A DNA stretch of 64,000 bases from the NCBI GenBank assembly GCA_003216375.1, contig QCIZ01000002.1, forward strand, positions 1 through 64,000. Reading direction: 5' to 3'. The translations under genes were made by a program, and so were the position numbers. Positions 29,102 to 31,426 of this stretch are shown piece by piece. The stretch's first letter is position 1. Each line of letters opens with the position of its first letter. The stretch comes from Prochlorococcus sp. AG-402-O21. Lineage in GTDB: Bacteria; Cyanobacteriota; Cyanobacteriia; PCC-6307; Cyanobiaceae. The notes under the pieces were generated by a model, which had not been told where the DNA came from, made no database searches, and saw only the letters and a list, made by a program, of their open reading frames with translations.

Positions 29102-29257
29102 AAAAATTTCCTTATGTTCCTTACAAGATTAGATCTAAATCTGAATTACTTCTACATTCTGTGTCCTAGAAAAAATTTAATAATAAATGAACGCATCTTT
29201 TATTATTCATGGCTTGATTTGAACAATTAAGCACCAACTAACAAGAAAAATGATACA

Positions 29258-29280
29258 GTGTAGGTACCGGTGTAGGTACC
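29258..29280. repeat. Tandem 11-bp repeat containing GGTACC, just before the sulfite reductase frame
   Basis: GTGTAGGTACC occurs at 29258-29268 and again at 29270-29280, one base apart (12-base period). The second copy abuts the TTG at 29282. Each unit contains the 6-bp palindrome GGTACC. A possible -10 (TACAGT, 29254-29259) overlaps the first copy. The repeat is either an operator for the downstream gene or a remnant of a recombination region linked to the integrase-like segment. Confidence 0.8.
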
Positions 29281-29281
29281 A

Positions 29282-31426
29282 TTGCCCAAGATCATAGAAA
29301 TACCTGGAAGATCTGGTTTCTACCTTAGGGTTGCTGTCCCAAGAGGTAAATTAAGGGATGCTTTTGGAACATGTGATGTTGTAAAAAAAATAGGTAACAC
29401 TAAAGAAGAAGCCGAAAAGAATATAAGCTCAGCAGAAATAGCTATTCAACAAAAATTCGATGAAAAGCTCAGAGAAGAAGAAGCAAACCAGATCAATAAA
29501 TCATTACCTAAAGGCATAAGACTCGAGGCGATTAAAAAAAGTAATTCAAAAGAGGCTCCTAAAAATATAGAAAAAGACTTAAAAGATGCTGGATTCAGCA
29601 ATGCAGCTATTGAAGCTTTGATGAATTTTGAAGAAAATGAATTTAAAAATTCTGTAGAAAAAGAAGAGACTGTTCCTTCACCTTGCATCGCTAATAATTC
29701 CCCTCGAGCGAAATTCGAACAATTTAAAGCCGATAGTAATTACTTAAATGAGCCTCTTCAAAGTGAATTGATAAACGACAGCGATCACTTTACAAACGAT
29801 GCAGTACAACTACTAAAATTTCATGGTAGTTATCAACAAGATGATCGGGAACATAGAAAAAGAGGCGGCACAGGTAAAGATTGGCAAATGATGCTGAGGC
29901 TAAGAAATCCAGCTGGTTTAGTCCCAGGACCCCTTTTCATAGCATTAGATGATCTATCTGATCGACTAGGTAATAAAACGCTTAGAGCGACCACACGTCA
30001 ATGCTTCCAAATGCATGGAATAAAAAAAGACAATATTAAAGAAGTAATAGGAACAATAGTGAAGTCGATGGGATCTACCCTCGCGGCTTGTGGAGATGTC
30101 AATAGAAATGTAATGGCTCCAGCTGCTCCTTACGAAAAAGGATCATATCCCGCTGCGAGAAAATTAGCTAATGATATTGCCGATGTTTTATCACCCCAAA
30201 AAGCAGAGAAAACATACATTGATTTATGGGTTGATGGCGAGATGAAATATGCTATTAAGCCATCGCCTGAAGTAAAAAAAAGCAGAAAGCTGCAACGAAA
30301 TCATGGTGTTTTTAGTGGGGACAAAAATGAACCTTTGTATGGTGCAACCTACTTACCAAGAAAATTCAAATGTGCAACCACAGTACCAGGAGATAACTCT
30401 GTAGATATCCTTACTCATGACATAGGTCTAGTGACTTTCACGAATGCAAAAGGAGTTTTAGAAGGATGTAATGTCTACGTAGGAGGAGGTATGGGTAGAA
30501 CACACAATTTAGATACGACATTCGCGAGGGTTGCAGATCCTATTGGTTTTGTAGAAGGTAAATACATATTAGAGCTTGTTCAATCTATTCTCGCTCTGCA
30601 AAGAGATTATGGAGATAGAAAAACGAGAAGACACTCAAGACTTAAATATGTTTTGCATGACATGGGTGTGGATTGGTTTAAGAAGCAATTAACAACTAAA
30701 TATTTTACAAAACGAATTGACACCCTTAAGCACGAAGGGGATACAATACTTGAAGATTATTTAGGCTGGCATCAACAATCTGACAAATTATGGTTTGTTG
30801 GGCTACCACTATTATCAGGCAGGCTTACAGGAGAGATAAAGAAAGAGCTTAGAAATATAGTTGAAAAATATGCCTTGGATGTACGCCTAACTCCTAACCA
30901 AGATCTTTTATTGTGCAACATCGGAAATTATCAAAAAGCCAGTATAAAGAATGCATTAATTAATATAGGTTTTTCAGATCCAGGGAGCCCTGAGCCAATA
31001 GCTAGGCATGCAATGGCTTGTCCAGCTCTTCCATTATGTGGACTTGCAATGACAGAAGCAGAGAGATTTTTACCAGAGCTGTTGGAGCGAATAAACAATC
31101 AATTAAAAATTCTAGAAATCAATAAATCAATCTTAATCAGAGTAACAGGCTGTCCAAATGGATGCGCTCGGCCATACATGGCAGAATTAGCTCTTGTTGG
31201 CAGTGGTTTAAATCAATACCAACTATGGCTTGGTGGTAGTACTAATTTAAAAAGGATGGCAACCCCATATTTACAAAAGATGTCTATAAATGAATTGGAA
31301 AAAACATTAGAGCCATTATTCCTTAGCTGGAAAAACACTGGGACTTCATCAAGCCTTGGAGATCATGTGACTAAACTTGGCACTGAAAGCGTAATGTCTT
31401 TGCTTACCTCAAATGCTGCTCCATAG
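29282..31426 (+). CDS. sir: Ferredoxin-dependent sulfite reductase with unusual integrase-like N-terminal extension
   Basis: Reduces sulfite to sulfide for cysteine synthesis using reduced ferredoxin. The siroheme and 4Fe-4S ligands are Cys580, Cys586 (CPALPLC) and Cys624, Cys628 (GCPNGC). KFHGSYQQDDR, LRATTRQCFQMHGI and YLPRKFKCATTVPGDNSVDI are Sir blocks. The conserved enzyme begins near residue 140 (SPRAKFEQFKADSNYL). Before it lies a segment whose residues 8-60 (GRSGFYLRVAVPRGKLRDAF then GNTKEEAE) resemble the N-terminus of tyrosine recombinases. TTG 29282 is poorly placed for ribosome binding; ATG 29621 (Met114) is an alternative start. The last 64 bases overlap the convergent VanX-like gene. 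Confidence 0.93.
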   Translation: MPKIIEIPGRSGFYLRVAVPRGKLRDAFGTCDVVKKIGNTKEEAEKNISSAEIAIQQKFDEKLREEEANQINKSLPKGIRLEAIKKSNSKEAPKNIEKDLKDAGFSNAAIEALMNFEENEFKNSVEKEETVPSPCIANNSPRAKFEQFKADSNYLNEPLQSELINDSDHFTNDAVQLLKFHGSYQQDDREHRKRGGTGKDWQMMLRLRNPAGLVPGPLFIALDDLSDRLGNKTLRATTRQCFQMHGIKKDNIKEVIGTIVKSMGSTLAACGDVNRNVMAPAAPYEKGSYPAARKLANDIADVLSPQKAEKTYIDLWVDGEMKYAIKPSPEVKKSRKLQRNHGVFSGDKNEPLYGATYLPRKFKCATTVPGDNSVDILTHDIGLVTFTNAKGVLEGCNVYVGGGMGRTHNLDTTFARVADPIGFVEGKYILELVQSILALQRDYGDRKTRRHSRLKYVLHDMGVDWFKKQLTTKYFTKRIDTLKHEGDTILEDYLGWHQQSDKLWFVGLPLLSGRLTGEIKKELRNIVEKYALDVRLTPNQDLLLCNIGNYQKASIKNALINIGFSDPGSPEPIARHAMACPALPLCGLAMTEAERFLPELLERINNQLKILEINKSILIRVTGCPNGCARPYMAELALVGSGLNQYQLWLGGSTNLKRMATPYLQKMSINELEKTLEPLFLSWKNTGTSSSLGDHVTKLGTESVMSLLTSNAAP

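Follow-up and report, generated by a model that had tools for sequence, protein, structure and literature searches.

Organization of the sir locus

In the window (the whole stretch of 64,000 nucleotides of Prochlorococcus sp. AG-402-O21 that was analyzed) the sulfite reductase gene sir is a forward-strand frame of 714 aa (29282-31426) that starts with TTG. Upstream of it lies a divergent glyS-like frame, running from 29101 downwards, and downstream a convergent frame similar to D-Ala-D-Ala dipeptidases, both named from their translations. The dipeptidase-like frame and sir overlap tail-to-tail by 64 nt (window 31363-31426). Pfam matches to NIR_SIR (E 1.9e-39) and NIR_SIR_ferr (E 3.2e-27) identify the fused product as carrying the domains of a ferredoxin-sulfite reductase. 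The residues C580, C586, C624 and C628, which from their motif we take to be the cysteines of the 4Fe-4S/siroheme site, are invariant in 20 fused Sir sequences (20 of the 23 complete ones). The Sir core was present in 189 of 201 family genomes searched, and in all 131 of the more complete ones.

The coordinates of the features are listed in Table 1. Ahead of K144, the first residue of the KFEQFKADS block, the fused Sir has 143 residues, of which ca. 119 are recombinase-like and ca. 24 resemble a native Sir N-terminus. A previous interpretation of this DNA, made from its letters alone (the sequence-only reading), had put the extension at about 139 residues, close to the actual length, of which the recombinase-like part makes up only those ca. 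119. It had also held that related Sir proteins begin near FEQFKADS, in agreement with the unfused relatives, in which merely short open frames of about 25-58 residues precede this block. A PCIA-type block was recognizable in 17 unfused sirs with inspected N-terminus (of 19).

Table 1. Features of the sir locus in the window.
Feature	Position	Strand	Remarks
Putative extended -10, TGnTACAGT, found by eye	29251-29259	+	8 of 10 columns before repeat 1 invariant, 30 loci of the genus
Tandem repeat copy 1, TGTAGGTACC	29259-29268	+	9 of 10 columns invariant, 30 loci
Tandem repeat copy 2, TGTAGGTACC	29271-29280	+	9 of 10 columns invariant
Start codon TTG, flanking the tandem	29282-29284	+	GTG instead in L008 and L016
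DUF6538-like recombinase N-terminal block, codons 1-66	29282-29479	+	R10, G12, Y14, P20, K36 invariant; pN/pS 0.089
Variable linker, codons 67-92	29480-29557	+	pN/pS 0.232 (codons 67-93); pLDDT 72 and 52
Second conserved block, codons 93-119, KDLKDAGFSNAAIEAL	29558-29638	+	Aligned with LEQRLKKAGF in L071 and with a similar part of L064
Probable native Sir N-terminus, codons 120-143, SPCIAN block	29639-29710	+	Similar block in unfused sirs; junction approximate
Sulfite/nitrite reductase core of sir	29711-31426	+	NIR_SIR and NIR_SIR_ferr domains

The leader is related to tyrosine recombinases

In a six-frame search of 400 genomes of the family, residues ca. 2-67 of the leader matched seven recombinase ORFs of 424-453 aa (33-50% identity, E < 1e-6). 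With direct matches at E values down to 7e-11 the similarity exceeds chance. For comparison we used a set of 24 recombinase frames of 396-482 aa, found among 36 loci fetched by place. Phage_integrase matches were present in 23 of them (the exception is L152), 18 above Pfam's cut-off, and DUF6538 was found at the N-terminus of 17 (E < 0.05), its cut-off being exceeded in two, L143 and L151. In alignment A1, which comprises the leader and the recombinase N-domains, the five invariant residues of the first block are shared by all 21 rows. Together, homology and shared invariant residues place the leader as the N-terminal domain of a picocyanobacterial recombinase. The nearest one was L064 (48% identity over the N-domain), and L071 was the second nearest as judged by the second block. 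In both, the stretch aligned to KDLKDAGFSNAAIEAL precedes the core-binding region, so that sir has retained the N-terminal part of a recombinase but neither its core-binding nor its catalytic domain.

The leader alone had no recombinase match in Pfam or PHROGs at E values up to 10. DUF6538 (PF20172) gave no row in Pfam at that limit either, its curated cut-off not being reached. For the fused protein Pfam gives the Nir/Sir domains and one sub-threshold match of the leader to DUF4473 (E 0.008, below the cut-off), the Phage_integrase catalytic domain (PF00589) being absent. As it lacks this domain and falls short of the DUF6538 cut-off, we do not file the fused Sir as a recombinase. The leader shares with DUF6538 N-termini their N-terminal position and the G-R-x-G-x-Y ... 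P ... K pattern, although it has no DUF6538 row itself. Our literature search found no paper naming DUF6538.

The sequence-only reading had proposed an in-frame fusion of sir to the N-terminus of a DUF6538-type integrase. The motifs that it quoted (Y-x-R..., K-x-(I/L)-G-N-T...) are present in the frame, and the proposal is borne out by pairwise and profile comparison and by the DUF6538 matches of the recombinases. The HMM search that it recommended for the leader did not retrieve recombinases from Pfam or PHROGs, the relationship emerging instead from the pairwise and profile comparisons. Where it had asked if close relatives share the extension, we found it common to them, with the integrase similarity kept along with it.

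A class-wide scan with A1 matched 4 of 291 genomes, all of them within the family of the window. Among viral contigs three scans found no relatives, and a fourth gave a single 26% C-terminal match. In phage records neither the leader nor recombinase L064 was matched.

The structure predicted for the leader has three strands and a long helix, with pLDDT of 89-92 over residues 11-60, dropping in the linker to 72 (residues 71-80) and 52 (residues 81-90). Foldseek comparison of this model with PDB and BFVD gave nothing at E 0.001 or better. Of 109 chains, VIA-align listed 37 as weak matches (Z 2.0-3.6), with mitoribosomal proteins at the top, and several of them are presumably double-stranded-RNA-binding folds. 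The arm-domain structure of a P4-like integrase (3rmp_C) ranked sixth, below mitoribosomal proteins (Z 3.3, rmsd 3.3, 49 aligned). The best result of a PDB sequence search with A1 was a designed protein (E 0.024). A model of the full-length fused Sir was discarded as unusable (mean pLDDT 50). The predicted fold of the leader is compatible with an arm-binding domain, for which the leader is a candidate.

Distribution and origin of the fusion

The leader is present in frame in 30 of the 41 genomes of the genus (g1, Prochlorococcus) and in G101, which belongs to another genus; 23 of the leader-bearing loci come from Prochlorococcus single-cell genomes. The 5' end of sir is unassembled in the remaining 11 genomes of the genus: four had no match, six had only a relative at 26-31% identity, probably another reductase, and one had a C-terminal fragment at a contig edge. 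Pairwise and profile searches (400 genomes each) revealed no further sir with the leader in the family.

In the Sir tree, which takes the 30 best-scoring loci of the 201 genomes searched and not the full sample, the 11 fused proteins form one clade (support 100/98), so that a single gain suffices; the unfused g27 adjoins it (87/85). The distance from the glyS motif to FEQF was 621-662 nt in the 11 fused loci, all of them scored, versus 174-212 nt in 14 of the 19 unfused (the other five were unscored), i.e., a net in-place gain of ca. 440 nt between glyS and the next gene. The motif of the convergent neighbor is kept in 30 of 30 loci and the gene order is unchanged by the fusion. The tree needs one origin, located at this site. 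The leader had been described earlier as a mobile-element fossil. A local fossil is contradicted by its occurrence in 30 genus genomes plus one from another genus, by its apparent single origin and by purifying selection.

Translation and selection

The start codon is TTG or GTG in all 30 loci of the genus and in L078, 1-3 nt after the second repeat. In five of the 30 (L022, L024, L026, L027 and L031) there is an in-frame ATG further upstream, and since the frame is open through the repeats to that ATG, a longer product is possible there. We calculated pooled pN/pS from the 27 of 31 loci with equal length, leaving out L012 (incomplete) and L027, L031 and L078 (other length). Codons 2-66 gave 0.089, codons 67-93 gave 0.232, codons 93-116 gave 0.087 and codons 117-143 gave 0.384; in the Sir core, represented by its first 470 codons, the value was 0.116. 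The recombinase blocks of the leader are thus under purifying selection as strong as that on the enzyme core. Within codons 2-119 the variable sites were 45, 29 and 111 at codon positions 1, 2 and 3, respectively. The conserved start and the purifying selection indicate that the leader is translated, and we regard the fusion and its constraint, taken together, as practically certain.

A silent or relic leader, with translation from ATG 29621 or later, had also been considered in the sequence-only reading. It could draw on the start codon, which is of a rare type (TTG/GTG) and never ATG at that place in the 30 loci. However, codons 2-116 are under purifying selection and TTG and GTG replace each other exactly at the start, observations that contradict a silent leader and make it hardly credible.

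Tandem repeats upstream of fused sir

The two copies of TGTAGGTACC are located 12 bp apart. In the window a single base separates the second from the TTG start, and the first shares one base with the TGnTACAGT block. The sequence-only reading had missed both the tandem and the putative -10. Over the 30 loci of the genus 18 of the 20 repeat columns are invariant, versus neither of the two columns of the spacer. Upstream of the -10 block 1 of 38 columns is invariant when counted ungapped, or 6 of 38 gapped, and as 25 of the 38 gapped columns reach at least 90%, repeats and upstream DNA differ in degree. The TGTAGGTACC tandem was found once per genome in 30 of the 41 genomes of the genus, in all 30 at sir (the control gave 0; up to 3 mismatches), and in 17 of the 17 more complete ones. 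In G101, TGTTGGTACC is found twice before the fused sir. Single copies of GTAGGTACC were not enriched in the genome of the window (4 matches versus 10 for the backward control), and two other GTAGGTACC sites in it were rejected as targets, one lying in an opposite-strand frame and the other in none of the frames listed (80 aa or longer). An CACTTTATTGAA-like element is found upstream of unfused sirs (e.g., L046, L047, L052, L055 and L056), and the fused loci retain an TTTGAACAATTA-like stretch upstream of the repeats (about 29215-29230 in the window).

Repeats upstream of recombinase genes

We scanned ca. 86 nt around the N-domain start of the recombinases for direct repeats, allowing periods of 10-17; positions are relative to the N-domain start rather than to start codons. 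An upstream repeat of at least 9/10 was present in 15 of the 24 recombinases, eight of them with 10/10, and the period was 12 or 13 in all 15. Random windows from the same loci (n = 390), which are not matched promoter regions, gave 13 at 9/10 or better and none at 10/10. At the level of clusters (50% identity), 10 of 15 have a member with a repeat of at least 9/10; the upstream regions of unfused sirs gave 0 of 19. The other nine recombinases, L071 among them, had no repeat of 9/10. The repeats of L064 are TTGTAGGTAC/TTGTAGATAC, with the core TGTAGGTAC common to L064 and sir, and the genome of L064 has this tandem at a single place, in front of that recombinase. From one recombinase to the next the repeats vary in sequence and keep their layout. 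Similarity of the N-domains correlated with that of the repeats (Mantel r 0.32, p 0.0002, n = 25; r 0.21 when limited to pairs with less than 60% identity), a modest correlation that shared descent alone could give. The 25 members of this set include three short frames, two Rieske fusions and two sirs.

A GACCTG.A...CCA-like element, which may be an attachment core, was seen ca. 80-110 nt before the N-domain in L062, L063, L065, L066, L068, L072 and L079. ARAGORN found no tRNA or tmRNA in 33 loci, and no RNA family of Rfam was matched in 10 loci. Four short frames, L063 (111 aa), L069 (112 aa), L072 (177 aa) and L074 (141 aa), have the N-domain without a catalytic domain and are either decayed recombinases or free-standing proteins. 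In one genome of the genus a complete recombinase of this kind (G002:C1:130057-130242; L028, L079) is located ca. 43 kb from a fused sir and has different repeats, TGGTAGGACC.

A possible autoregulatory capture

We propose that the ancestor of genus g1 and lineage g66 gained, before its native sir, the 5' piece of a mobile-element recombinase gene. This piece would have included the promoter -10, two tandem sites of ca. 10 bp and the start codon, together with the coding sequence of the N-terminal region as far as the core-binding domain. Joined in frame to the native coding sequence, it would have given a single protein with an arm-binding-type domain, a linker and a complete sulfite reductase. 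The direction of capture would be from recombinase into sir. In the recombinase, the N-terminal domain would bind tandem sites that overlie the promoter of the recombinase gene. As a part of Sir the domain would still bind the same two sites, over the transcription start, and sir would be repressed when Sir is abundant. The repression would perhaps be tuned by the substrate (sulfite), siroheme or redox state, as in a PutA-like trigger enzyme, with a putative coupling to Sir catalysis.

Leader and repeats are both kept by selection, suggesting possible control by the enzyme of its own gene. Both halves of the recombinase layout were inherited and kept. The simplest mechanism would be that the domain still binds both sites. 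On balance, binding of the leader domain to the TGTAGGTACC tandem sites seems somewhat more probable than not, and for the autoregulation of Sir by this domain we see about an even chance. Equally balanced, in our view, is the complete proposal that sir took the promoter, the sites and the cognate DNA-binding domain of a recombinase and may repress its own promoter.

Other explanations can be considered for the conservation of leader and repeats. The captured domain might have been kept for a role at the protein level (oligomerization, partner docking or Sir stability), the repeats persisting as promoter or short 5' leader. The second block (codons 93-116) is indeed as constrained as the first, and beyond the repeats, too, the upstream DNA shows fair conservation. 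However, a protein-level role does not account well for invariant bases in two 10-bp copies around a variable 2-nt spacer, and many recombinases have the same layout of repeats without Sir, so that we find it unlikely. The leader could also provide Sir with a general affinity for DNA or the nucleoid, rather than control of its own promoter, like in the plant plastid sulfite reductase, which is reported to bind and compact plastid DNA, with negative effects on transcription (PMC4154389). The exact conservation of the repeats, and a tandem that occurs once per genome, point instead to a local target, and general affinity appears quite improbable. Finally, given their position directly before the start codon, the repeats might act in the 5' end of the mRNA, on translation or stability. 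But the constraint on the leader is on the protein, as the distribution of variable sites over codon positions indicates (45, 29, 111), and among recombinases it is the layout that is constant while the repeat sequences vary; we give a role in the mRNA very little weight.

Comparison with known systems

Trigger enzymes such as PutA carry a DNA-binding-type domain through which they could act on their own gene, a feature that the proposed autoregulated Sir would share. Its domain differs in having a mobile-element recombinase as its source, the sites apparently having come along with it, and the regulation is putative. The promoter of the KplE1 integrase gene intS is reported to overlap the arm-type sites, with IntS repressing itself (PMC2951348). 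The likeness is in a gene promoter that overlaps arm-type sites bound by the N-terminal domain of the protein; however, the regulator there is the whole integrase, whereas the fused Sir keeps the N-terminal domain alone, on a metabolic enzyme and with putative binding. BzdR (PMC3602430) joins an N-terminal DNA-binding domain to a metabolic-enzyme domain whose activity was lost, and the enzyme chimera described there is a laboratory construct. The fused Sir has the same join, but it is a natural chimera that retains its enzyme core. With the plant plastid sulfite reductase DCP68 it shares a DNA-linked activity (putative in the fused Sir), although that of DCP68 is a general DNA compaction, and the excerpted PMC4154389 makes no mention of a recombinase-like N-domain. 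In its proposed way of working the fused Sir would resemble both a trigger enzyme and an autoregulated integrase, and we file it as neither.

Among the papers listed by our literature search (open-licence sources) there was no report of a recombinase-sir fusion. Here a part of a mobile element has turned into a constrained component of a core metabolic enzyme, apparently together with its own DNA target, and a function and sites can be proposed for the uncharacterized DUF6538-like domain. If the proposal is true, one event is enough to bring an enzyme under feedback control, with one domain and one tandem site.

Fusions to Rieske oxygenases

The same kind of N-domain was found fused to a Rieske/Ring_hydroxyl_A protein in two loci of g41, L067:1311-2630 (+, G388) and L073:590-1900 (-, G407), and both fusions are homologous throughout. 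The first is preceded by a perfect 9-bp tandem and the second by an imperfect pair (7/9). Such a fusion was detected in 1 of 121 g41 genomes at E 1e-20; the second case (G407) was found by the leader search and is apparently outside that sample. We put forward, tentatively and with somewhat less than even confidence, that the one-step gain of an arm-binding domain and its operator gave a ready-made autoregulatory circuit, kept across the genus, of which the Rieske fusion would be a second, independent case. If true, streamlined genomes would have gained new regulation repeatedly by capturing the fronts of recombinase genes. A KASIII-like frame (named from its translation) is located near the Rieske fusions.
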